Part shown: piece by piece, positions 1,481 to 11,855 of the stretch
How the letters are laid out: each line of letters opens with the position of its first letter
Numbering within the stretch: position 1 is the stretch's first letter
Assembly (NCBI GenBank): GCA_020430865.1
Contig: JAGQIY010001212.1
Span: 1-12,150 of the forward strand
Source: Myxococcales bacterium
GTDB lineage: Bacteria; Myxococcota; Polyangia; Polyangiales; Polyangiaceae
Direction: 5' to 3'
Length of the DNA stretch: 12,150 nt
Notes under the pieces: model-generated
The model's database searches: none
The model's input: the letters and a program-made list of their open reading frames with translations, nothing else
Told to the model about the DNA's origin: nothing
Made by a program: the position numbers and the translations under genes

Positions 1481-1508
1481 GGAAACCTCGAGGCGATTCG
1501 AGCGTATA
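1481..1508 (+). promoter_or_regulatory. ECF-sigma-type promoter of the secreted protein/amidase pair
   Basis: GGAAAC (1481-1486), a 16-nt spacer and CGTATA (1503-1508) match the general ECF promoter form, with an AAC-containing -35 and a CGT -10. It closely resembles the Bacillus SigW consensus TGAAAC-N16-CGTA. The same AAACC-N15-CGTA core stands in front of the ECF sigma gene at 10414-10441. The overlapping TATACT (1505-1510) could also act as a housekeeping -10 box, but no good TTGACA-like -35 is present. Expected transcription start is about 1514-1518, at or next to the ATG. Confidence 0.55.
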
Positions 1509-1517
1509 CTGAGGGTA

Positions 1518-2045
1518 ATGCGCGTCCCCTCGAGACGTTCCCTTGCTTGGCCCGCCGTCAGTGGTGTGCTTTTCACCTGCATCGTCGCTGGCACCCACGC
1601 TCACGCGGCAGCCGCAGAGCGCTCCCATCTGGGAGGCCCGAGCGAAGCAAAACGGCTCACCTCGCCCACCGAGCTCAGCCAGTCGATTCGCGCCGAAGGC
1701 CAGCTCGGCCCCGGCAAGGGGACGCTGTACGTCGGTCTCGAGCCCCCTCCAGGGGCGAAGCTGACGGAGGGCTCCCCGGTGGTTATCGAAGCGTCGGGTC
1801 AGGGCCTGAAGTTCCCTGCAAAGCTCAAGACCCGGATGCAGCCCGGTACGCCCGTCGCCATCCCGGTGGAAGTGGACGAGTCGAGTCCGGGCAAGGCCAA
1901 GCTCGCGCTGTCCTACTACTGGTGCCACTCCGGCGACTCCGGTCAGTGCGTGCGGGAGCACGCGGATCTGACGGTGACCCTCGACCTCAGCGGCGATGCC
2001 CCTGGAGGCGAGGCCTACTTCCGCTACCGCGCGACGACGAAGTAG
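1518..2045 (+). CDS. Secreted small beta-domain protein with a CX7C pair
   Basis: The 175-residue product has a clear signal peptide: basic n-region RVPSRR, hydrophobic stretch about residues 9-25, and a likely cut after AHA at about residue 30. The mature part is rich in predicted beta strands and has no transmembrane segment. The most distinctive segment is YYWC (C136) followed by seven residues to C144 in QCV, then a strand reading LTVTLDL. This resembles the C-terminal beta domain of NHLRC2-type thioredoxin proteins and the N-terminal domain of DsbD, where two cysteines lie in a similar place. That similarity is by eye and remote. The two cysteines could form a disulfide or bind metal; function is unknown. 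ATG 1518 is preferred over an upstream in-frame ATG at 1455, because only 1518 puts a signal peptide at the N-terminus and it follows the predicted promoter. The amidase gene starts 40 bp downstream. Confidence 0.75.
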   Translation: MRVPSRRSLAWPAVSGVLFTCIVAGTHAHAAAAERSHLGGPSEAKRLTSPTELSQSIRAEGQLGPGKGTLYVGLEPPPGAKLTEGSPVVIEASGQGLKFPAKLKTRMQPGTPVAIPVEVDESSPGKAKLALSYYWCHSGDSGQCVREHADLTVTLDLSGDAPGGEAYFRYRATTK

Positions 2046-2047
2046 CG

Positions 2048-2060
2048 CCAGGGAACCTGG
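2048..2060 (+). other. Intercistronic hairpin
   Basis: A perfect inverted repeat, CCAGG-GAA-CCTGG, begins three bases after the stop of the secreted-protein gene and lies before the amidase. There is no T-tract, so it is not a standard terminator. It may mark a processing or stability point between co-transcribed genes, or be chance. Confidence 0.3.
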
Positions 2061-2085
2061 ACGAGTTCCGTGTAGAGTGCGGAGC

Positions 2086-3762
2086 ATGTTCGAGCTTCCT
2101 CAAGGCCGGATCACCGGCACCGCGCTGCGCGCCCTGGTCAAGGCAGTCCGTCACACCCCCGCCCATCGACTCACCAGCGCCGTGCTCCGACAGCAGCTCG
2201 GGATCGAAGACCTCAAGCGCTTGCCGGAAGACGCGCGCCTGGCGCTGCCCATGAACTACCTCCCGGTGAGGGCGCGCCCCGACCACGGTCGCGCGAGCGA
2301 GGATCTGGGCACCCCGGCGGATCAGGCGTGGCCTCGCACGACCCAGAGCTACGCCCGAGCCCTCCGGGAGGGGCGCATCACCTCGGACGAGCTATGCGAG
2401 CGAGCCTTCGTTGCGGCCAGAGATCTCGAGCGACAGCAGCCGAGTCTCGGACCGCTCTGCGAGACCGACGAGCAGGGCGCGCTGGAGGCGGCCCGGGCAG
2501 CGGCGGAACGTTTCCGCAACGGAAATCCGCTAGGCCCTCTCGATGGCGTCCCCCTGGCCATCAAGGAGGAAATCGACTTCGCTGGTCTACCCACGCGGCT
2601 CGGCACGGGCTGGATGCCGAACACGCCGGCTGGAAAGGACTCGACGTGCGTCGATCGACTGCGCAAGGCGGGCGCCGTGCTACTCGGCCAGACCCCGATG
2701 ACGGAGTACGGGTTGTCTCCCCTGGGCGGCAACGTACACCGCGCGATGCCCCGCAACGCCCACAACCCCGGGCACCTTCCCGGCGGAAGCAGCAGCGGGT
2801 CAGGCGTCGCGGTCGCGACCGGCGTCACTCCAGTGACGCTGGGAGTGGATGGTGGTGGCTCGATCCGCATCCCCGCCTGCTTCAACGGCGTGTTCGGGCT
2901 CAAGCCCACGTTCGGCCTGATCCCCGCCACCGGGCATGGCTCCTCCGGTGGCAGCTCGGTCGTGCACCTGGGCCCAATCGGGGCATCGAGCTACGATCTC
3001 GCGGTGTTCCTCGAGGCAACGGCCGGCACCGACTGGACGGACACCGCGTCGCTACCGGCCCCAGCGTTCAAGAACGGTGAGCTAGTCGAAGCCCTGGGTC
3101 GGGGGGTGAGGGGTCTGAAGATCGGCGTCATCGAGTCGGAGTGGGACGCCGCGAGTCACGAAGTCAGCGACGCTGGACACCGCGCGCTCAGGGCCCTGGA
3201 AGCAGCTGGCGCCGAGCTGGTGCAGGTCAAGCTACCGCTGATCCGTCACGCTGCAGCCATGGGGTACCTGACGATTGGCCTCGAGATCTTCAGCTCCATG
3301 CGCCTCGAGCGAGCCGAGCACATGGATCGCCTTGGTCTGGACGTTCAGCTGTTGATGCGTGGGATGGAAGCCTTCGCTTCGGATGATTACCTCGACGCGC
3401 AGCGCCTGCGGGCTCGTTTGCGCACGGAAACCGCGAAGCTGCTATCGGAGGTCGATGTGCTGGCGCTGCCCACGACGGCCGCAACCGCGCCGCCGATCAG
3501 CGACGCCGAAGCCGCTCAGGGCTTCGTCGACCCGCCGGCGCTCGAGGACGCCTGCCGCTTCGCGTTCCTGGGCAACCTCACCGGCATCCCTGCTGGCACG
3601 GCCCCGGTCGGCCTGGGCGCGAAGGGCCTGCCCATCGGCTTGCAGATCCTCGGGGATGCATACGACGAAGCCTGCGTGCTGGCGGTGCTCGCCGCCCTGG
3701 AGCGCACCGGTGCGGCGCGGGCAGAGCGACCCGCGAGCGGTCTCGACCTCCTCGACCTCTGA
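2086..3762 (+). CDS. Amidase-signature family hydrolase
   Basis: The 558-residue protein belongs to the amidase signature family (GatA, FAAH, bacterial amidases), which hydrolyses amide bonds with a Ser-cisSer-Lys triad. All three residues are in place: K160 in LAIKEEID, S235 in PGGSSSGSG, and nucleophile S259 in GVDGGGSIRIPA. The 24-residue gap between the serines equals that of FAAH (S217/S241). C-terminal family landmarks include a LALPTTAATAPP stretch and GLPIGLQILGDAYDE near the end. About 85 residues precede the catalytic domain, are rich in charged residues, and lack a signal peptide, so the enzyme is probably cytoplasmic. The substrate cannot be read from sequence. A role as GatA is unlikely because no gatB or gatC is nearby and GatA is usually about 480-490 aa. 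GGAG lies only 1 nt before ATG 2086, so GTG 2077 remains a possible start. The gene lies 40 bp after the secreted CX7C protein and probably shares its promoter. Confidence 0.9.
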   Translation: MFELPQGRITGTALRALVKAVRHTPAHRLTSAVLRQQLGIEDLKRLPEDARLALPMNYLPVRARPDHGRASEDLGTPADQAWPRTTQSYARALREGRITSDELCERAFVAARDLERQQPSLGPLCETDEQGALEAARAAAERFRNGNPLGPLDGVPLAIKEEIDFAGLPTRLGTGWMPNTPAGKDSTCVDRLRKAGAVLLGQTPMTEYGLSPLGGNVHRAMPRNAHNPGHLPGGSSSGSGVAVATGVTPVTLGVDGGGSIRIPACFNGVFGLKPTFGLIPATGHGSSGGSSVVHLGPIGASSYDLAVFLEATAGTDWTDTASLPAPAFKNGELVEALGRGVRGLKIGVIESEWDAASHEVSDAGHRALRALEAAGAELVQVKLPLIRHAAAMGYLTIGLEIFSSMRLERAEHMDRLGLDVQLLMRGMEAFASDDYLDAQRLRARLRTETAKLLSEVDVLALPTTAATAPPISDAEAAQGFVDPPALEDACRFAFLGNLTGIPAGTAPVGLGAKGLPIGLQILGDAYDEACVLAVLAALERTGAARAERPASGLDLLDL

Positions 3763-3779
3763 GCGCGCACAAAACACGT

Positions 3780-3802
3780 GCGGCGCCCGCGAGGGGCGCC
3801 GC
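3780..3802. terminator. Two-way hairpin terminator between convergent genes
   Basis: GCGGCGCCC (3780-3788) and GGGCGCCGC (3794-3802) form a perfect 9-bp stem with a 5-nt loop, 17 bp after the amidase stop. Read on the minus strand, the stem is followed after a few bases by TTTT (3771-3774 complement). On the plus strand the following sequence is only weakly T-rich. It probably ends transcripts from both the amidase and the PHA-system gene. Confidence 0.7.
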
Positions 3803-3850
3803 GCTTGGTCTCCTCTCGCCGCGGCGAGCAGGGGACGACATGGGCAGCGT

Positions 3851-4162
3851 TCAGAGCTCGCCGGCCTTCGCCTTGCCGACCCACTTCTGGATCTCTTCTT
3901 CGATCACCCCGAGCGCCTTGCCCTTGAACGGCTTGAGCAGGAAGGGAACGTCGAGTTCCATCTCGATCACGTCGTCCTTCACCTCGAGGTCTCCGTTCAA
4001 GCTGACCCCCTTGGCGGTGAAGCCGATGCTCGCCTTGTCGTCGGAGACCCAGTTCGCCGTCGGGTTGTACTTGGCGAAGCGCTCCTTGTAGGAGTCGAAC
4101 GCCTTCTTGCAGACCTCGACCGCTTTCTCTTTCCCTAGTCCGTGATTTACCGTGTGCTTCAT
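3851..4162 (-). CDS. Polyhydroxyalkanoic acid system family protein (PHA_gran_rgn-like)
   Basis: The 103-residue protein matches the form of the small PHA_gran_rgn family (PF09650): an N-terminal HGLGKEKAVEVCKKAFDSY helix, a middle beta region with GVSLNGDLEVKDDVIEMELD, and the characteristic FLLKPFKGKA near residues 74-83. A final amphipathic helix reads IEEEIQKWVGKAKAG. Members are found near polyhydroxyalkanoate genes and are thought to act at storage granules, but here no phaC, phaA or phasin is adjacent. The overall fold, a helix followed by strands, also resembles SRPBCC-type small proteins. ATG 4162 is chosen over an ATG 27 bases further out because GGAGA lies 4 nt upstream of it and family proteins begin close to this point. 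It is monocistronic, convergent with the amidase and followed by the hairpin at 3780-3802. Confidence 0.7.
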   Translation of the reverse strand: MKHTVNHGLGKEKAVEVCKKAFDSYKERFAKYNPTANWVSDDKASIGFTAKGVSLNGDLEVKDDVIEMELDVPFLLKPFKGKALGVIEEEIQKWVGKAKAGEL

Positions 4163-4304
4163 ATCGTCTCCGGGGGCGGACCCTAGCACTTGTTCGAAGA
4201 GCTGAGGGCAATTCGCGGGGCTTTTTTAGGTATTCCTCGCGAGCATTGCAAGCTGCAGACCGCAACGTGGGGCCCGGCGTTTCCGGCTGCTCGATGGGGC
4301 ATGA

Positions 4305-4323
4305 GACGCCCTTGCGGGGCGTC
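4305..4323 (-). terminator. Hairpin overlapping the stop of the acyl-CoA-dehydrogenase-like gene
   Basis: GACGCCC (4305-4311) and GGGCGTC (4317-4323) form a 7-bp stem with a 5-nt loop that includes part of the minus-strand stop codon (4322-4324). No T-tract follows on the minus strand, so this is a weak terminator candidate. The rest of the gap 4163-4321 shows a T6 run at 4222-4227 with no matching stem and nothing else recognisable. Confidence 0.35.
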
Positions 4324-5365
4324 AAGCCTCCACACGAACCGCGGCCATGCGCGAGGCGAGCTGCCGGCGCGCAGCCTCACGCCGCGCGTCGCGCGCGCCC
4401 TGAGCTACCCGCAGCAGCGCCCGATCTCGCTCCCAGGCGTGCCACTCGGCGCCTCCGACGTCGCTCCAGGCCTCCTCGAAGCCCGGGATCAGCTCGGCGA
4501 CTTGACGCTCGAGGCCCGCGAGCGCGGCGTGGGTCGTGCTCTGCTTGGGATCGAGACCAGCGACGCTCCAGCACGACAGGAGCAGCGCGCTCAGCACCTC
4601 CGACCACGCGGGAGCCAGCCCGAGGCGCCCGCTCACGCCGATGAAATAGGCGCAGACGGCGAGCTGGACGTGGCTGTCCTCTACCGTACGGAAAGGCTTG
4701 AGGTAGTCTGCATAGCCATCACCTGGAAGCAGGTCCGCACCGTCGATCACCGTATCGAACCCGAACCCGCAGTGGGTGATTTCTGGGCAGAACGGCGTGG
4801 GGCGCGCTGCTGTCCGGGTCACCCCAGGCGCCGTCGCATCGACTCGCGCGACGACGAGCTTCGGACGCCCGTCTGACCGCTCCCCCTGACGGCACACCAC
4901 CAGGAGTTCCTCGGCGGATCCCCCGAGGGTTGCCCAGGTCTTTTCCCCATGGATACGAAAGCCGCTCCCCTCGGGCGCCAGGCTGGTCTTGATGGCGCGT
5001 GGGTGCGCGCCTTCGGCTTCGGTCGCGCAGAACGCCACTCGGCGCACGCCGCAGGGATCGAGTCCGCCGCCTAGCCGCGCCAGCGCGGCGTGGAAGCCCC
5101 CGGCGAACGCCAGGCCCAGGCGGCCGCTCTCCCCAGCCAGGACGATCGCGCGAGCGGTCGGATCTCCCAGCTCCTCGCGCAGTCGGCGCTCGCGCTGCCA
5201 CCAGTCCTCGAGCTGGGTCAACGGCGCCGGGACGGGACGCATGAGGAGGCGCTGGAGCGCGATTTCCAGTTGAGTCACTCGGAACGCGTAGCCGGGATAC
5301 CAGACGACGCAAAGGCCCCGGCGCGCAGCTTCGAGCTGCACCCCCGCAGCGCGGCCCGCCCTCAT
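4322..5365 (-). CDS. Short acyl-CoA-dehydrogenase-like protein
   Basis: The product has 347 residues. Its centre carries the acyl-CoA dehydrogenase middle-domain signature: ATEAEGAHPRAIKTSLAPEG (114-133), FRIHGEKTWATLGGSAEELL (136-155) and a substrate-domain stretch to about residue 210, the part that packs on flavin and acyl chain. The usual N-terminal helical domain is short, and the C-terminal four-helix domain is reduced. I cannot place the catalytic glutamate or the usual terminal RDAR/GT-type flavin-contact motif, although a WERDRALL stretch (311-318) may be its remnant. It may be a divergent dehydrogenase or a non-catalytic relative. ATG 5365 is preferred. An extension to ATG 5425 has a passable AGGA site, but its codons (TTA, ATT, TTT, AAA, CGT) lack the strong GC third-position bias seen downstream, and it would overlap the divergent gene's start codon. 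GTG 5341 is another option. Confidence 0.7.
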   Translation of the reverse strand: MRAGRAAGVQLEAARRGLCVVWYPGYAFRVTQLEIALQRLLMRPVPAPLTQLEDWWQRERRLREELGDPTARAIVLAGESGRLGLAFAGGFHAALARLGGGLDPCGVRRVAFCATEAEGAHPRAIKTSLAPEGSGFRIHGEKTWATLGGSAEELLVVCRQGERSDGRPKLVVARVDATAPGVTRTAARPTPFCPEITHCGFGFDTVIDGADLLPGDGYADYLKPFRTVEDSHVQLAVCAYFIGVSGRLGLAPAWSEVLSALLLSCWSVAGLDPKQSTTHAALAGLERQVAELIPGFEEAWSDVGGAEWHAWERDRALLRVAQGARDARREAARRQLASRMAAVRVEA

Positions 5366-5372
5366 ACGACGT

Positions 5373-5406
5373 AACTCAAAAATGAGTTGCGCCTGTTTCC
5401 GACAGG
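5373..5406. promoter_or_regulatory. Two palindromes in the divergent 58-bp intergenic region
   Basis: AACTCA-AAAA-TGAGTT (5373-5388) is a perfect 6-bp inverted repeat with an AT centre. CCTGT-TTCCG-ACAGG (5392-5406) follows it directly. They fill most of the space between the starts of the acyl-CoA-dehydrogenase-like gene (5365, minus) and the lipoprotein gene (5424, plus), the position expected for a shared operator. Acyl-CoA genes are often controlled by TetR- or GntR-type repressors with such sites, but no regulator gene is present here. Alternatively the first is a chance feature of an AT-rich promoter. Confidence 0.45.
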
Positions 5407-5423
5407 TTTCACCATCCAGCGCC

Positions 5424-7028
5424 ATGCGCCGATTCCTAGCCCTCGCCGTGCTGTCCCCCGCCTTGGTCCTCGCCTGCGGGAGCGAAGACGAAGAATCCAG
5501 CTCCTGCGCTGGGAGCGCCTGCGCGGGCAGCGCGGGGACGGGTGGCAGAGCCGGTTCCGCAGGGAAACCATCGAGCGGGGGCGCTGCCGGGACAGGCGCA
5601 GGCGCGGGGGGAGCCACAGCAGGCGCCGGAGGAGCCACAGCAGGTGCCGGAGGAGCCACAGCAGGTGCCGGAGGAGCCACAGCAGGTGCCGGAGGAGCCA
5701 CAGCAGGCGCCGGAGGAGCCACAGCAGGCGCCGGAGGAGCCACAGCAGGCGCCGGAGGAGCCACAGCAGGCGCTGGCGGTTCCGCGGGGAGCAGCGCCTG
5801 CACGACCTGCGGCCCAGTCAGCGCGCTCCGCATCTCCGAGGTGCTGTACGACGCGCCGGCGGGCGACGCCGGACGCGAGTGGATCGAGCTGTACAACCCG
5901 GGCTCTGAGCCGGTGGATCTGGCTGCCGCTGCGCTGGGCTACGGCGGCAGCACGTTGACCTCCGTCACCCTCGACCTGCCAGCCCTGATTCTGGCTCCTG
6001 GCGCCTGCGTCGTCGTCGGCGGCCCCGACGCCTCCGCTGATATTGGCTCGCCGAGCTACGCGGCCACGCTGAACCTGGGTGGACTGCAGAACGCCACGAG
6101 CGACACGGCGGACGGCGTAGCGCTGTTCGTTGGTCCCGCGAGCAGCCTGAACGCCGGCTCGCTGCCTTTCGACGTGGTCCTCTACGGCGCCGCAAACAGC
6201 AACTCCCTGCCCAGCAGCGACGGCAGCGTCCCGAGCCAAGGCTATGTCATGGCGAGCGCGGCGGGTCAGAGCCTCTACTCGTCCCTCGGTGGGTCACGGT
6301 CCGCCGCGTGGGGGATCGCCAGTGTTCCGTCTCCAGGCCGCTGCTTCGGCCTCGTGGCGAGCGATCTCGGCAACGGTGACAGCCAGGTGTTCAGCGGGCG
6401 ACGCCGCGGTCCCGAAGCAGGCGGGCAAACGCTGGGGCTGAAGACCTTCAACGTCGACGCGAGCACGACCACCGTGCTCTTTGGAACTCGAGCCGCGAGC
6501 TGTATCGACGACGCGCAGGGTCTGTCCTGCACCGTGCCGGGGGGGACCGGCGTCGTGGATCTCACCCTGCGACAGGCAGGCGGTGATGTCGTGTATCCCA
6601 GCTTCTACAGCTACGAGCCCATCGACTACTGCATCCTCCAGTACCCCAAGGATCACACGGGTGCCGTGGCCGCCACGACGACGTTCTTCGGCCGCGTCTA
6701 CGAGAGTGGCCTCACCGAGGCCGCCGGTGACTCCGGCGCGCTGGACGTCGAGTGGGGGTACGGTCCGCTGGGTGTGGACCCAGGCCTAGCTCCGAGCGCG
6801 TTCACCTGGCTCGGCGCGAGCTTCAACGTCCAGAGTGGCAACGACGACGAGTATGCCGCAGACGTGACGCTCCCCGGTCCGGCGGACGTGTACGCCCACG
6901 TGTTCCGCGTGCGTCCCAGCAGCGGCGGTGTCTGGACCTACTGCGACCGCGATGGCACCGTGAACAACGACCCGGGCGGAGCCAACTTCTTCGACGTGAA
7001 CGACGTCGGGCTCCTGGAAACCCAGTGA
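5424..7028 (+). CDS. Lamin-tail-domain lipoprotein with a Gly/Ala/Thr repeat linker
   Basis: The 534-residue protein begins with a lipoprotein signal (MRRFLALAVLSPALVLAC, lipobox LVLAC, lipidated C18). A flexible linker contains eight copies of GATAGAG (residues 63-118). A lamin-tail domain (LTD, an Ig-like beta fold common in secreted bacterial proteins) runs from about 135 to 306 and opens with LRISEVLYDAP and REWIELYNPGSEPVDL. A short IPT/TIG-like segment follows (about 325-400). The C-terminal beta domain (about 405-534) has FFGRVYESGLTE, GYGPLGVDP, ASFNVQSGNDDEY, VFRVRP and WTYCDRDG landmarks that recur in secreted myxobacterial proteins. It is probably outer-membrane or surface anchored, holding binding domains away from the membrane. 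LTD domains in bacteria often accompany nucleases or adhesins, but no catalytic residues are seen here. ATG 5424 is chosen because it alone gives the signal peptide; the Shine-Dalgarno is poor. Confidence 0.88.
   Translation: MRRFLALAVLSPALVLACGSEDEESSSCAGSACAGSAGTGGRAGSAGKPSSGGAAGTGAGAGGATAGAGGATAGAGGATAGAGGATAGAGGATAGAGGATAGAGGATAGAGGATAGAGGSAGSSACTTCGPVSALRISEVLYDAPAGDAGREWIELYNPGSEPVDLAAAALGYGGSTLTSVTLDLPALILAPGACVVVGGPDASADIGSPSYAATLNLGGLQNATSDTADGVALFVGPASSLNAGSLPFDVVLYGAANSNSLPSSDGSVPSQGYVMASAAGQSLYSSLGGSRSAAWGIASVPSPGRCFGLVASDLGNGDSQVFSGRRRGPEAGGQTLGLKTFNVDASTTTVLFGTRAASCIDDAQGLSCTVPGGTGVVDLTLRQAGGDVVYPSFYSYEPIDYCILQYPKDHTGAVAATTTFFGRVYESGLTEAAGDSGALDVEWGYGPLGVDPGLAPSAFTWLGASFNVQSGNDDEYAADVTLPGPADVYAHVFRVRPSSGGVWTYCDRDGTVNNDPGGANFFDVNDVGLLETQ
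5610..5777 (+). repeat. Eight tandem 21-bp repeats, in frame
   Basis: The unit GGAGCCACAGCAGGYGCC plus GGA is repeated eight times without gaps (168 bp), encoding GATAGAG each time. Apart from the last unit (GCT GGC at its end), the only variation is one synonymous base: GGC, GGT, GGT, GGT, GGC, GGC, GGC, GGC in units 1-8. This block pattern suggests recent expansion by duplication of neighbouring units. The length is a whole number of codons, so changes in copy number would alter linker length without breaking the frame. Confidence 0.95.
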
Positions 7029-7045
7029 GCGAACGCGGGTTCGCT
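7028..7045 (+). terminator. Hairpin directly after the lipoprotein stop
   Basis: GCGAAC (7029-7034), loop GCGG and GTTCGC (7039-7044) form a perfect stem, extended by A7028-T7045 to 7 bp. It starts at the last base of the stop codon. No T-tract follows, so termination is plausible but unproven. Confidence 0.4.
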
Positions 7046-7135
7046 GCGCTCTTGGCCGCTCTGGGCCCCTCGAGTCGCGTGGCTCGCAATTGTGGCGCGC
7101 GCTCTGCGTCCGAAGGCGCGTAGACTTCCTCTTTG

Positions 7136-9433
7136 GTGAGTCAGCTCGAGTCCAAGATCCCGTTCGAGGCCTTGATCGCCGTCGCTCCCGGCGCCGTGCT
7201 GGGGTGTGACGGCGAGCGCTGGGTGTATGCCAACGACCGCGCGCGGGAGTTGCTGGGGGAGCCGGCTTGCGCCGTTGGCGAGCGGGTAACCAAGGCGTTT
7301 CTCGAGACCGAAGCGCCCTTGGTGGAGGCCTGGCTCCAAGCCGCGCGCCTCACCCCCACGATCAAGACACTCACTTGCTCGAAGTGGGAGACGTCCGTCG
7401 AAGCTCGCGCGCAGCGCATCTCCGATGGCGTCATCGCCGTGTTCCTGCGCGATCTCACGCTCCAGGAAACGCTCGCGGCGCGCCTGCGGGAGAGCGAAGA
7501 CTTCAAGCAGCAGGTGCTGGAGATGCACCCGGGCGTGATCTACGTCTTCGATCTCGTCGCGCGACGCCCGGTGTTCGTGAATCCTCGATTCGCCACGCTC
7601 CTCGGCTACCCGGCGGAAGAGAGCGACGCCCTGATCGAGCGCTTCACCGAGCTGATGCACCCGGCAGATCTCGAGGCAGCTCGCGAGCAGGTCGCGCGCT
7701 GGGAGCTGGCTTCGGACGACGAGGTCCTCGAGACGATGCATCGCATCCGCGCCGCCTCGGGCAGCTGGCGCTGGTTCCTCGGCCGAGACCGGGTGTTTCG
7801 TCGCGACGAGGCCGGACGGGTCACCCACGTGATCGGCATCACCACCGACGTAACGGATCGGGTTCTCGACGAGCAGGCGCTGCGCGCCAGCGAGGCGCGT
7901 TTCCGCGCGATCTACGCCGGCGCAGGCATGGGGATCGCGCTGTGCAGCTTGCGCGGGAGGGTGCTCGAGTCCAACGACGCCCTGGCGGGCATGCTCGCGT
8001 TGCCGACCGAAGCGCTTCGCAGCGTGCAGCTCGAAGACCTGATCGTTCCAGGTGAACGCGCGGCGCTGCGCGCTGGCTTGCGCGCGCTCGATGCCGGTGC
8101 GATTCATCGCGCCGAGCACCGCCTGGAGCAGCCCTCGGGAGCTCCGCGCTGGGCTCAGCTGACGATCACGACGGCGGGCACGGAGGAGGCCCCCGGCTAC
8201 CTGATCGCGATGCTCGAAGACATAACCGCGAGGAAACAAACTGAGCAGGCGCGTGACCAGCGTGCGGCGGAGCAACTGCAGTCGAAGAAGCTCGAGAGCC
8301 TCGGTCTCCTGGCGGGCGGGATCGCCCACGACTTCAACAACTTGCTGCTGGGCATGCTGGGGAACGCGGCGCTGGCGCGCAAGTTCATCGACCTGCAATC
8401 ACCCGCGGCGCGTCACCTCGAGTTGATCGAGGCCGCCGCGGTCGCCGCAGGCGAACTCACCACCCAGATGCTCGCGTTCACCGGTCGGGGCGAGCTCAAC
8501 AAGAGCACGTTGGCGCTGGGCAACTTGCTGCGCGAGACGGTGGATCTGCTCGCGGTTCGCACCGCGGCTGGCAGCTCCAGACGTCCGGAGTTCCGCTTCG
8601 AGATCGAGGACGCCTTGCCAGAGGTCTGGGGCGACGCAGGTCAGCTACGTCAGGTGTGCATGAACCTGGTGGCGAACGCAACCGACGCGCTGAGGAGTCG
8701 CAACGGGACGATTCACCTGCGCGCAACCGCCCAGGCTGCGCCCGACCTGACGACTCGCGTGGACCGCTTTCAGGCCATGATCCCCGAGGCGTCGCCACCC
8801 CCGAGCGCGGAGAACGGCTTCGTCTGCGTCGACGTCGAGGACGACGGCGATGGCATGAGCGAGGACACCTTGAGTCGGATCTTCGATCCGTTCTTCACCA
8901 CCAAGCCTGGCGGCAAGGGGTTGGGGCTAGCGTCGGTGCTGGGCATCGTCCGGGCCCACCATGGAATTATCCACGCAGAAAGTGCTCCGGATCGCGGGAC
9001 GCGTTTTCGTGTCTGGCTACCCTGCCAGCGCCCGACGACACCCGCGCCGGCGTTGGGGGCGAGCAAGCGTCGCGGTCTCGCGCTCTTGATCGACGACGAC
9101 GAGATGGTGCGCGACGTCACCAAGAGCATGCTGGAGCTCGAGGGCTTCGAGGTGTTGAGCGCGGCCAGTGGCGGCGAGGGGCTCGCGCTCTTCGAGGCTC
9201 ATTCCATCGACGTGGTGATCCTCGACCTGACCATGCCTGGCCTGGGTGGCGAAGAGGTGTTCGAGCGCCTGCGAGCGCGCAACCCGCATCTACCCGTGGT
9301 CTTCACCACCGGGTTCACGGCGCACGAAGCGAGCGACCGCCTGCTGCGCCATCGCCGAGTGGCGCTCCTCCACAAGCCATACCGACTCCAGGCGTTGAAG
9401 GAGCACCTCGAACTCGCCATCGCCACCAGCTGA
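7136..9433 (+). CDS. Three-PAS hybrid sensor histidine kinase with C-terminal receiver
   Basis: The 765-residue protein has no transmembrane segment and should be cytoplasmic. Order: PAS 1 (about 8-110), PAS 2 (about 123-245, with a PAC-type end GITTDVTDR), PAS 3 (about 255-365, ending LEDITARK), a HisKA dimerisation helix with phospho-acceptor H398 in GGIAHDFNNLL, and a HATPase_c domain with N-box NLVANATDAL, G1 DDGDGMS, F-box FDPFFTTK and G2 GGKGLGLA. A receiver domain follows, with an acidic pocket IDDDE (about 650), phospho-acceptor D697 in ILDLTMPG, a switch Thr in FTTGF and Lys in LHKPY. All catalytic residues are present. The HDFNN type is common in kinases with PAS input and receiver output; the last PAS domains may sense small ligands or redox state. 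No DNA-binding output or partner regulator is adjacent. The start is GTG 7136; TTG 7133 is directly before it, and an in-frame stop at 7121 excludes anything longer. No good Shine-Dalgarno is seen. Confidence 0.9.
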   Translation: MSQLESKIPFEALIAVAPGAVLGCDGERWVYANDRARELLGEPACAVGERVTKAFLETEAPLVEAWLQAARLTPTIKTLTCSKWETSVEARAQRISDGVIAVFLRDLTLQETLAARLRESEDFKQQVLEMHPGVIYVFDLVARRPVFVNPRFATLLGYPAEESDALIERFTELMHPADLEAAREQVARWELASDDEVLETMHRIRAASGSWRWFLGRDRVFRRDEAGRVTHVIGITTDVTDRVLDEQALRASEARFRAIYAGAGMGIALCSLRGRVLESNDALAGMLALPTEALRSVQLEDLIVPGERAALRAGLRALDAGAIHRAEHRLEQPSGAPRWAQLTITTAGTEEAPGYLIAMLEDITARKQTEQARDQRAAEQLQSKKLESLGLLAGGIAHDFNNLLLGMLGNAALARKFIDLQSPAARHLELIEAAAVAAGELTTQMLAFTGRGELNKSTLALGNLLRETVDLLAVRTAAGSSRRPEFRFEIEDALPEVWGDAGQLRQVCMNLVANATDALRSRNGTIHLRATAQAAPDLTTRVDRFQAMIPEASPPPSAENGFVCVDVEDDGDGMSEDTLSRIFDPFFTTKPGGKGLGLASVLGIVRAHHGIIHAESAPDRGTRFRVWLPCQRPTTPAPALGASKRRGLALLIDDDEMVRDVTKSMLELEGFEVLSAASGGEGLALFEAHSIDVVILDLTMPGLGGEEVFERLRARNPHLPVVFTTGFTAHEASDRLLRHRRVALLHKPYRLQALKEHLELAIATS

Positions 9434-9624
9434 GACGAACCCGTACCCATGGGCGACGCTCCGCCGTTTGCACAGCGCGCCTCACCCCCAAGACCGGGTG
9501 CGAACCCGAAGTATCCGGCGGCCCGGTGTGATACGCTTTCGGGGGCGCTCGCCGCCCACGCATCGGCTTCCTCCGACCCCTCTCCGCGTTCACCCAGCAC
9601 GGGTGTCGCACCTCGCGACCCAAG

Positions 9625-10359
9625 ATGCCCACGGTTCACCACGGCAGAAAAGAAGTCCTGCTGAAGCTGGTCTACTACGGGCCCGGTTTGGGCGGGAAGA
9701 CCACCAACCTCGAGTACATCCACGCCCACAGCCGCCCGGAGTACCGAGGGAAGCTGCTCAGCCTGACCACCGAGAGCGAGCGCACGATCTTCTTCGATCT
9801 GCTGCCGGTGCACCTCGGCAAGTTCAAGGGCTACTCGATTCGACTCCACGTGTGCACCGTCCCTGGCCAGATCGCCTACGACGACACCCGACGCCTGATC
9901 CTGCGCAACGTGGACGGCGTGGTGTTCGTCGTCGACAGCCAGGAAGCCGCCCTCGAGGCCAACATTCAGAGCATGCACAACCTGGAGATCAACCTCGCGC
10001 GTCAGGGCATGGAGTACGCGCGTGTGCCCATGGTGGTGCAGTACAACAAGCGAGATCTTGCCGACATCCTCGCCCCCGAGGAGCTACGGAGAGCCCTCGG
10101 GCTGTCGGCGGATCTGACTCAGATCCCCGCCTGCGCCCGCGACGGCAAGGGGGTGTTCGAGACGCTGAAATCGATGGTCAAGGAGTGCCTCAAGCTGGTT
10201 GGCGACCCGGCGCACGCTCACGAGGGCCGTACTCCATCGATCCTGCCGGGCCGCCGCGCCAGCATGTTTCCGGAGTCGCGTCCGTCAGCGCTGACGGACC
10301 CTTCCAGTTCCGCGCTGCGGCCTCCTCCGGTCCCACGCGGCGACGCCGGCTCCAGCTGA
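9625..10359 (+). CDS. MglA-like Ras-family GTPase with extra C-terminal tail
   Basis: The first 195 or so residues align without gaps to Myxococcus xanthus MglA, the polarity switch for gliding and type IV pilus motility, recalled from knowledge. The P-loop GPGLGGKTTN is at 19-28, the switch I region TTESERTIFFDLLP includes R53 (MglA's intrinsic arginine finger), and TVPGQ places T78 and Q82 at MglA numbering in place of the Ras DxxG. NKRD is at 141-144. All nucleotide-binding residues are kept, so it should bind and hydrolyse GTP. A further stretch of about 50 residues, rich in Pro, Ser and Arg and probably disordered, follows and is absent from MglA (195 aa). No roadblock-type MglB gene is next to it, unlike the mglBA operon. 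It is probably an MglA paralog rather than the motility gene itself. Start ATG 9625 fits the family start; the Shine-Dalgarno is weak. The gap 9434-9624 shows no recognisable gene or promoter. Confidence 0.88.
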   Translation: MPTVHHGRKEVLLKLVYYGPGLGGKTTNLEYIHAHSRPEYRGKLLSLTTESERTIFFDLLPVHLGKFKGYSIRLHVCTVPGQIAYDDTRRLILRNVDGVVFVVDSQEAALEANIQSMHNLEINLARQGMEYARVPMVVQYNKRDLADILAPEELRRALGLSADLTQIPACARDGKGVFETLKSMVKECLKLVGDPAHAHEGRTPSILPGRRASMFPESRPSALTDPSSSALRPPPVPRGDAGSS

Positions 10360-10376
10360 GGTAGCGGGCGAGCGCT

Positions 10377-10402
10377 GGATTCTGCACCTGGTGAGTGAAT
10401 CC
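10377..10402 (+). repeat. Nested inverted repeat after the MglA-like gene
   Basis: GGATTC (10377-10382) pairs with GAATCC (10397-10402) around an inner CACCTGGTG near-palindrome (10385-10393). It begins 17 bp after the MglA-like stop and ends 11 bp before the predicted ECF promoter. It could end the upstream transcript, although it lacks a T-tract, or bind a regulator. Confidence 0.35.
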
Positions 10403-10413
10403 CGGAGCCTCGA

Positions 10414-10441
10414 TCAAACCGCCAGGACCGCTGACCGTAGA
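10414..10441 (+). promoter_or_regulatory. ECF-type promoter of the sigma factor operon (autoregulation)
   Basis: TCAAAC (10414-10419), a 16-nt spacer and CGTAGA (10436-10441) share the AAACC-N15-CGTA core and spacing with the promoter at 1481-1508. ECF sigma factors commonly transcribe their own operon. Predicted transcription start is about 10447-10450, giving a leader of roughly 90 nt. A small inverted repeat AGGGC/GCCCT (10441-10457) spans that start. Confidence 0.6.
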
Positions 10442-10536: not shown

Positions 10537-11148
10537 ATGAGCAGCCAAGAGCCGGACACGAGCGCACTGGACGCCGCGATGGATCGCTACGCCGCTGGCG
10601 ACGACGCGGCGTTCAACGAGCTCTACGCGCCGATAGCCCAGCGCTTGCTGCCCTTTCTCCGCAGGATGTGTGGGTCCCTGGAGCGGGCCGAGGATTTGCT
10701 GCAGGAGACGTTCGTGCGCATGCATCGCGCTCGCGGGTCATTTGGCAGGGGCGCGGCGGTCATGCCCTGGGCCTATGCGATCGCGCGGAACTGCTACATC
10801 GACTCCTATCGCGCGAAGAAGAGTCGTCCCAAGGAGGTCTCTCGCACCCGAGACAGCGATGCGCCCCCCTACCCCGAACCTCACGCGGGGCCGGACGCCA
10901 GCGGAGAAGCTCAGCTCGCCGCATCACAGATGGCGGAGGTGGTGCAACACGCGCTGGACAGCATGACGGTCGCGCGCCGGGAGGCGTTCGTGCTGGTGCG
11001 CTACGAGGGTCACAGTATCCGCGAGGCAGCGGAGGTCCTGGGAACCACGGAGGGCGCGGTGAAGCTTCGGGCATTTCACGCGTATCAAGAGATCCGCACC
11101 GCACTCGAACAGGCGGGCTTGCTCTCCGCAGGAGGGGGTGAGAGATGA
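10537..11148 (+). CDS. ECF-family RNA polymerase sigma factor
   Basis: The 203-residue protein has the two-domain form of extracytoplasmic-function sigma factors. Region 2 (about 20-92) contains AAFNELYAPIAQRLLPFLRR, the RAEDLLQETFVRMHRAR core-binding helix and MPWAYAIARNCYIDSYR, which recognises the -10 element. A charged, Pro-rich linker (about 95-125) leads to region 4 (about 130-195), with LDSMTVARREAFVLVRYEGH and the helix-turn-helix SIREAAEVLGTTEGAVKLRA that reads the -35. No region 1 or 3 and no C-terminal extension are present. The stop overlaps the start of the NrsF-like membrane protein by ATGA, the usual arrangement with an anti-sigma factor. ATG 10537 is chosen; TTG 10531 is in frame just before it. 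Only a weak GGGGCG ribosome binding site is seen. Its probable promoter is at 10414-10441. Confidence 0.93.
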   Translation: MSSQEPDTSALDAAMDRYAAGDDAAFNELYAPIAQRLLPFLRRMCGSLERAEDLLQETFVRMHRARGSFGRGAAVMPWAYAIARNCYIDSYRAKKSRPKEVSRTRDSDAPPYPEPHAGPDASGEAQLAASQMAEVVQHALDSMTVARREAFVLVRYEGHSIREAAEVLGTTEGAVKLRAFHAYQEIRTALEQAGLLSAGGGER

Positions 11149-11855
11149 CCACTCGCCAACCGCCCGAGGCCCTCGATGAGATTCACGGCCTGCGGCTGGA
11201 TCAGCTGGGCAACATCCCGGATCCGCTACTCGGGAGCAGCGCCTCACCCGCTCCTCCCCCCAAGCTCGGGGCGGCCCCGACCCGGGCTCAGTTCTGGCGA
11301 ACCCGGAGCTGGGCCCTGGTCGGAGCGGCGCTCTGGGCGTTTGGGCACCTGGGGATCCGCGCCGCCAAGGGCAGCTTCGACCGGCTCCCGCTCTGGTACT
11401 CGGCGTCCCACGTGATCGTGCCGTTCGTGCTCGGCGGCGCGCTGGCGTTCCTGGCTCTGCGCGGCGGCCGCCGAGGACTCGGCAGCGCCACGAGCCGGCT
11501 GATGGCCCTGGTGTTTGTGAGCATCGCCACGTTCTGGGCGCTGGCCATGTTGCTGCCTTCGCTGAACCCGGTGGCACCGGAACCGGCTGGCACGATGAGC
11601 TGCATGGGGCATACCCTGGCTTGGGTGGCGGGCCCGCTGGTGCTCGTCGCAATCGGCGTGCGGGGTTGTTTCCCCGCGGGTTCGCGCTGGCGCAGCGCAG
11701 GCCTGGGCGCGGCAGCCGGGCTCTTCGCTGGGGCGCTCACGAACCTGCAATGCTCGGCCGGTGGGCACCTGCACATGATGCTGGGTCACGGCTCGTCGGC
11801 GGTGGTCGCGGCTCTCGTGGGTGGCCTGTTGATCGCGAAGCTTTCCCGCGCCTGA
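11145..11855 (+). CDS. DUF1109/NrsF-like six-helix membrane protein, probable anti-sigma factor
   Basis: The 236-residue protein has a soluble N-terminal segment of about 50 residues that could hold the sigma factor. Six hydrophobic helices follow, approximately 54-72, 87-109, 122-142, 154-172, 186-205 and 212-233. That layout, and translational coupling to an ECF sigma (ATGA overlap, GGAGG 9 nt upstream at 11131-11135), match NrsF of Caulobacter, the negative regulator of SigF in the DUF1109 family. NrsF needs two conserved cysteines to respond to chromium and cadmium. Here cysteines are at 153 (SCMGHTLAW), 175 (RGCF) and 203 (LQCSAGGHLHMMLGH); 153 and 203 fall in the places expected for the conserved pair, and the histidines after 203 add possible metal ligands. 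Family membership is by eye. The inducing signal is inferred and could differ. Confidence 0.8.
   Translation: MTTRQPPEALDEIHGLRLDQLGNIPDPLLGSSASPAPPPKLGAAPTRAQFWRTRSWALVGAALWAFGHLGIRAAKGSFDRLPLWYSASHVIVPFVLGGALAFLALRGGRRGLGSATSRLMALVFVSIATFWALAMLLPSLNPVAPEPAGTMSCMGHTLAWVAGPLVLVAIGVRGCFPAGSRWRSAGLGAAAGLFAGALTNLQCSAGGHLHMMLGHGSSAVVAALVGGLLIAKLSRA

Follow-up and report, generated by a model that had tools for sequence, protein, structure and literature searches.

A sigmaF/NrsF-like sigma operon of Polyangiaceae and its probable promoter links to bufferin operons and a secreted CX7C protein

The window, by which we mean the whole 12,150-nt stretch of DNA analyzed here (from a Myxococcales bacterium of the Polyangiaceae), carries a gene for a small secreted CX7C protein and, at a distance, a sigma/anti-sigma operon, each preceded by a putative ECF-type promoter:

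1481–1508, + strand: predicted ECF-type promoter of the CX7C gene (−35 GGAAAC(C), 16-nt gap, −10 CGTATA)
1518–2045, + strand: CX7C secreted protein, 175 aa, probable stand-alone SOQ1/NHLRC2-type C-terminal beta domain
2086–3762, + strand: amidase (PF01425), 40 nt after the CX7C stop codon
10414–10441, + strand: predicted ECF-type promoter of the sigma/anti-sigma operon (−35 TCAAAC(C), 16-nt gap, −10 CGTAGA)
10537–11148, + strand: ECF sigma factor, 203 aa, with sigma-70 regions 2 and 4
11145–11855, + strand: NrsF-like membrane anti-sigma factor, 236 aa, with Cys153 and Cys203

The sigma gene product, which has no further sigma domain, is identified as an ECF sigma factor by PF04542, PF08281, and TIGR02937, all above cut-off; its closest relative, in genome G032, is 97% identical. 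The anti-sigma gene follows directly, overlapping the sigma gene by 4 bp (11145 versus 11148), and simple hydropathy gives its product four transmembrane helices (four to seven across nine aligned proteins). Cys153 and Cys203 lie 50 residues apart, a spacing kept in 9/9 aligned proteins. Against the Pfam NrsF family (PF06532), this protein scores 10.9 bits (E 0.4; cut-off 26.8), and because the cut-off is missed we refer to it as NrsF-like rather than NrsF; PF06532 is present in its homologues P0167–P0169 (39–41% identity). With the best 26 candidates per genome scored, NrsF-like genes occur in at least 26 of the 108 genomes from the family to which G001 belongs. A contig profile search with the sigma alignment A1 returned, among the matches listed, mostly unrelated ECF factors. 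A contig titled as a Bifidobacterium breve MAG (L021) encodes a relative of the window sigma at 33% identity, although its title or binning may be wrong. Elsewhere in the window, a small GTPase gene (9625–10359) lies upstream of the sigma operon; the neighbor in G032 is 91% identical, and related genes are found in CX7C–amidase–PHA neighborhoods of G054 and G031. A 21-bp unit repeated 8.4 times with 97% matches (5598–5773), inside a lamin-tail-domain lipoprotein-like gene, encodes a Gly/Ala-rich linker, probably of variable length.

The original prediction, made by eye, was that the two promoter-like sites are the only ones of their kind in the window and that the sigma factor recognizes both. 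Scanning of both strands for AAACC-N15-CGTA bears out the first part: there are exactly two matches (1483–1506 and 10416–10439, both on the + strand), with the predicted hexamers (GGAAAC/CGTATA and TCAAAC/CGTAGA) and 16-nt gap, each upstream of a gene (CX7C and sigma, respectively) in the sense orientation. In 200 shuffles of the window the mean count was 0.01 and none contained two, and relaxing AAAC-N16-CGTA to at most one mismatch revealed zero extra sites in the window, where chance would give 2.0. The window statistic alone is weak, since the pattern was picked after both sites had been seen. The sigma ATG (10537) lies 101 nt after the CGT of its promoter; for CX7C (ATG at 1518) this distance is 15 nt, which would leave its mRNA with little or no leader.

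Comparison of the upstream regions in relatives that retain the sigma gene, as originally proposed, found the motif kept in G032 (TCAAACC-N15-CGTAGA, 108 nt before the sigma start) and in about half of a wider set. This set comprises 25 sigmas of the window's own type, hereafter A (22 fetched as A, two placed by the tree, and that of the window); xAAC-CGTA precedes 13/25 of their genes, window counted (12 with gap 16, one with gap 17), and no xAAC-N15..18-CGTA was found within 320 nt upstream of 12/25. A paralogous sigma/NrsF-like pair, type B, has a main group of sigmas 64–75% identical to that of G054, and one at 50%. The B sigma gene precedes its NrsF-like gene (the G054 partner matches PF06532 at 37.3 bits, E 3e-9); several genomes also have a thioredoxin-like gene downstream. 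The motif stands before 12 of 13 B sigma genes, 11 times with gap 17 and once with gap 16; the B promoters thus have −35 and −10 elements in common with A and one extra spacer base. In a midpoint-rooted sigma tree without support values, built from Polyangiaceae sequences only, most A sigmas fall apart from B. Both examined genomes of the G032 genus (G032 and G031) hold a B sigma with its NrsF-like partner. Its conservation before A-type sigma genes and its enrichment before bufferin operons (below) make the motif a very probable ECF promoter, and autoregulation of the sigma gene probable.

The same motif recurs before operons for MNIO maturases. MNIO genes are present in 28 of 29 genomes searched, and of 14 control genomes, Caulobacter alone matched. 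AAAC-CGTA with gap 16 or 17 lies in the sense orientation within 1.5 kb upstream at 17 of 30 fetched MNIO loci (14/25 in one batch, 3/5 in another). The loci lacking it are 13/30 (G103, G104, G001, two of G082, G048, the second of G068, G085, G092, G033, G063, G013, and G071); among the final three named are loci with a short or truncated upstream region or an incomplete gene. Within the batch of 25 loci, downstream stretches hold no sense site and one antisense site. In 14/14 loci inspected by eye, a Cys-rich BufA2-like small ORF sits between motif and MNIO gene. The exact AAACC-N15-CGTA form, counted by hand (for G108, from 14 of 40 sites listed), occurs at least 10 times within 1.5 kb upstream of MNIO genes in nine genomes against 0.06 expected, an enrichment of about 150-fold from that minimum count. 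In G032, where the operon encodes a BufB-like maturase above cut-off (NF050167, 352 bits versus 310) and a BufA2-like precursor below it (36 versus 60), one promoter type precedes both the sigma operon (C720:2580) and the bufferin operon (C910:5476), as expected of a single regulon. In six genomes (G001, G047, G068, G074, G076, and G101) an NrsF-like gene and an MNIO gene are neighbors, at most 2.4 kb apart; for the NrsF-like gene of G076, no adjacent sigma gene was found.

The shared motif might instead be some other repeated element or binding site; we give this almost no credence, given that the bipartite spacing is fixed, that the batch of 25 MNIO loci has 15 sense sites upstream versus one antisense, and that the motif resembles GTAACC-N16-CGAA, the 5′-RACE-supported promoter of Caulobacter sigmaF described in the available part of PMC3511200.

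A promoter role is less evident from genome-wide counts, which the original prediction had proposed as a check and which we ran in relatives. G032 holds 25 exact sites in its 7.9-Mb genome, 11 of them intergenic, and more motif than reversed-control sites were counted in just three of nine genomes (G032, G082, and G106). For gaps N13 to N18, G032 has 6, 17, 25, 11, 12, and 19 sites; the excess at N15 has p 0.002–0.006, whereas all gaps pooled give 90 sites versus 126 for the reversed control. Promoter-like placement is seen for 8/25 N15 sites versus 9/65 at other gaps (p = 0.051), with N16 (4/11) and N17 (4/12) as good as N15. The scan came out strong before bufferin operons and mixed on intragenic versus upstream sites, and the reversed controls led us to discard genome-wide over-representation as proof of the motif.

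Other G032 sites lie before genes with a thiol/oxidative-stress theme: in the set L215, L216, and L217, the exact motif stands 201 nt before EgtD, 113 nt before a gene fusing OsmC to a hydrolase, and 47 nt before the gene of a YceI-like lipoprotein. A further exact motif lies 164 nt before a gene about 3 kb from an MNIO gene (L207:1445–1882, G032:C50), encoding a lipoprotein-like protein with GCGAGSCG and GCGAGTCG ends that is possibly a further MNIO substrate. We treat the EgtD, OsmC-hydrolase, YceI-like, and GCGAGxCG lipoprotein genes as leads only. On the minus strand of L278 (G032:C730), TGAAACC-N16-CGTAGG, with the B-type gap, lies about 14 nt before an ATG at 1290, directly before a peroxiredoxin/AhpC-TSA gene and in the near-leaderless geometry seen at CX7C.

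For the CX7C gene itself, a profile (A3) matched in 11 of 108 genomes of the family, and a search of 183 genomes of the order returned these 11 again; ten relatives were scanned upstream, the cut-off locus L120 being left out. Two carry a like promoter at a like distance: G054 (TGAAACT, gap 16, CGTAGA, 15 nt to the ATG) and G016 (TGAAACT, gap 17, CGTACT, 16 nt). G071 has a weaker site (gap 15, CGTTTA), and no motif of such form precedes CX7C in G022, G023, G024, G070, G001, G052, or G087, with GGAAC-N17-CGTT noted by eye upstream in G023 and G024. G001 is the only examined genome with both an A-type sigma and CX7C, and there the motif is absent before the sigma gene, CX7C, and the fetched MNIO gene alike; its CX7C lies 52 nt behind another gene and so may have no promoter of its own. 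CX7C was not found in the fragmented G032 assembly. Near gene starts, GAAAC-N15..17-CGT occurs at 3/7 CX7C, 3/8 sigma, and 1/153 other genes (p = 2e-4 with the window; CX7C 2/6 without it), the sole other gene belonging to the G074 bufferin cluster. This count covers 168 called starts (17/185 genes too near an end were dropped) from a simple GC3 scheme that missed CX7C in G023, G024, and G071 and bufA2 in G032.

Could the site before CX7C be a chance match, with CX7C and the amidase using another promoter? It was found post hoc, most CX7C relatives are without it, and its −10 is so near the ATG that the mRNA would be almost leaderless. At G032 density, however, only 0.001 sites would be expected by chance in the 60 nt preceding any of about 10 genes. 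Element and distance recur in G054 and G016, and the single case among 153 other genes shows how seldom such a site stands before a gene; we find chance very unlikely. Since two relatives have such a promoter 15–16 nt before the start, the CX7C gene likely belongs to the regulon, with its absence in G001 and most CX7C relatives telling against.

Which sigma factor would serve this promoter is a separate matter. An A-type sigma was not found in G054 or G016, and the CX7C promoter there must therefore serve another sigma. It may be that the window CX7C promoter is real and used by a B sigma or other ECF factor, the window sigma keeping to its own operon, bufferins, and the like: B is present in G032 and G031 and so may exist in the genome of the window, only B was found in G054 and G016 even though the promoter is present, and B promoters have the same −35 and −10. 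Spacer length speaks against such an assignment, in that the window CX7C gap (16) equals that of the window A promoter, whereas the gap is 17 in 11 of the 12 B promoters that carry a site; G016, with only B found, has CX7C gap 17, and G054, likewise with only B found, is the exception at 16. We judge use by another sigma to be unlikely. The original claim that the sigma at 10537 recognizes both sites holds as probable for its own operon; at CX7C either A or B may act. The link that it drew was right in kind, CX7C probably falling within a sigmaF/NrsF-like regulon.

Spacer length also separates the bufferin promoters. Their gap is 16 in 11 genomes with A (G032, G047, G068, G074, G075, G076, G101, G102, G106, G107, and G108) and 17 in six with only B found (G016, G022, G023, G024, G031, and G054), with p = 8e-5 on the assumption of independent genomes, which they are not; four of the 11 (G032, G074, G075, and G076) also hold B, whose own gap there is 17. 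According to the available part of PMC6411747, ECF sigmaH requires a rigid spacer. A tentative idea, which we would sooner doubt than accept, is that A and B switches in the same genomes, with near-identical −35 and −10 elements, are separated by one spacer base, and that bufferin operons, and probably CX7C, moved between regulons via that base. Whether one spacer base can insulate paralogous ECF factors could be tested directly on the A/B pattern; this one-base difference between paralogous switches and the bufferin link go beyond the original prediction.

The CX7C protein gave zero matches in a Pfam scan and none at E ≤ 10 in a sequence search of the PDB. Its family comprises 38 relatives including the window protein, and both cysteines of the motif are invariant across 22 aligned sequences. 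An AlphaFold model (mean pLDDT 82.7) predicts the domain confidently, with block pLDDT values of 82–98 from residue 51 on. Foldseek matched this model at E ≤ 0.001 to four chains only, all of 7djl/7djm (E 2e-7 to 9e-6), with 10% sequence identity to 7djl, which we take to be SOQ1, as fits the 7djl title and reference 16 of the available part of PMC10173003. The N-terminal domain of DsbD was rejected as nearest fold (rank 47, E 0.028, rmsd 17.6). In G052, a 670-aa protein with thioredoxin-like and NHL domains ends in a CX7C-like domain, its C-terminal part being 47% identical to CX7C over 122 residues. Because of the Foldseek matches and this fusion link, CX7C is, as far as modeled fold and sequence indicate, a stand-alone C-terminal domain of SOQ1/NHLRC2-type thioredoxin-NHL proteins; those carry both thioredoxin and NHL parts, whereas the CX7C protein is free, secreted, and without either. 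We infer a redox role for it.

The amidase was originally suggested as a further regulon member, and here the picture is divided. In the window the amidase starts 40 nt behind CX7C; the gap is 52 nt in G054 and 43 nt in G070. In G022, however, the two lie 8.4 kb apart, G016 has them on separate contigs, and G031 has the amidase without CX7C; in the fragmented G032 assembly none was found at E ≤ 1e-60. The operon layout makes co-transcription plausible, with the amidase the probable second gene of the CX7C transcript and probably carried along with it.

Promoter pairs, their conservation and enrichment, and gene identities are read from the sequence; sigma recognition and the stress signal we infer as follows. 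The NrsF-like protein would tether the ECF sigma at the membrane until metal or oxidative stress acts on its two cysteines facing the periplasm, upon which the freed sigma, with RNA polymerase, would transcribe from YGAAACC-N15-CGTA-type promoters. One of these would drive the sigma and anti-sigma genes themselves; in relatives, such a promoter would drive operons for a small Cys-rich peptide and an MNIO maturase (bufferin type); and in the genome of the window, a second copy would drive CX7C, with the amidase reached by read-through. We favor with fair confidence this whole reading, an envelope-stress switch of sigmaF/NrsF type using both window promoters and including CX7C. The small disulfide-type secreted protein would then be a probable new member of an envelope-stress response, and a free SOQ1-type domain would join a defined stress response.

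Bufferins (BufA/BufB, MNIO-modified peptides) are copper-binding according to the literature, and the G032 operon resembles theirs in its BufB-class maturase and BufA2-like precursor. The closest known system, by sequence, appears to be sigmaF–NrsF of Caulobacter crescentus (ECF16 group). In the available part of PMC3511200, it too couples an ECF sigma to a membrane anti-sigma, encoded next, whose two signal cysteines (C131/C181) are spaced by 50 residues; it is autoregulated, as is probable here, and controls MNIO (DUF692) operons, again as is probable here. It differs in its promoter (GTAACC-N16-CGAA; here AAACC-N15-CGTA), in its targets (DUF2282 (Buf1) operons and YedY; here BufA2-like precursors and CX7C), and in that the window anti-sigma falls below the Pfam cut-off. 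Brucella BcrS/AbcS likewise pairs an ECF16-type sigma with a six-helix DUF1109/NrsF anti-sigma whose signal cysteines also lie 50 apart (C129/C179), but is alphaproteobacterial and responds to hypochlorous acid (PMC8315932, available part). Among the open-access literature matches listed, none concerned such a system in Polyangiaceae. If our reading is true, the sigmaF–NrsF metal/oxidative-stress circuit known from Proteobacteria extends to Polyangiaceae with another promoter, and is linked to Buf2-like bufferin operons: the sigma-type promoter stands here before Buf2-like operons, whereas the available part of PMC12452194 places sigma and NrsF genes in Buf1 clusters only, and not in Buf2 clusters.
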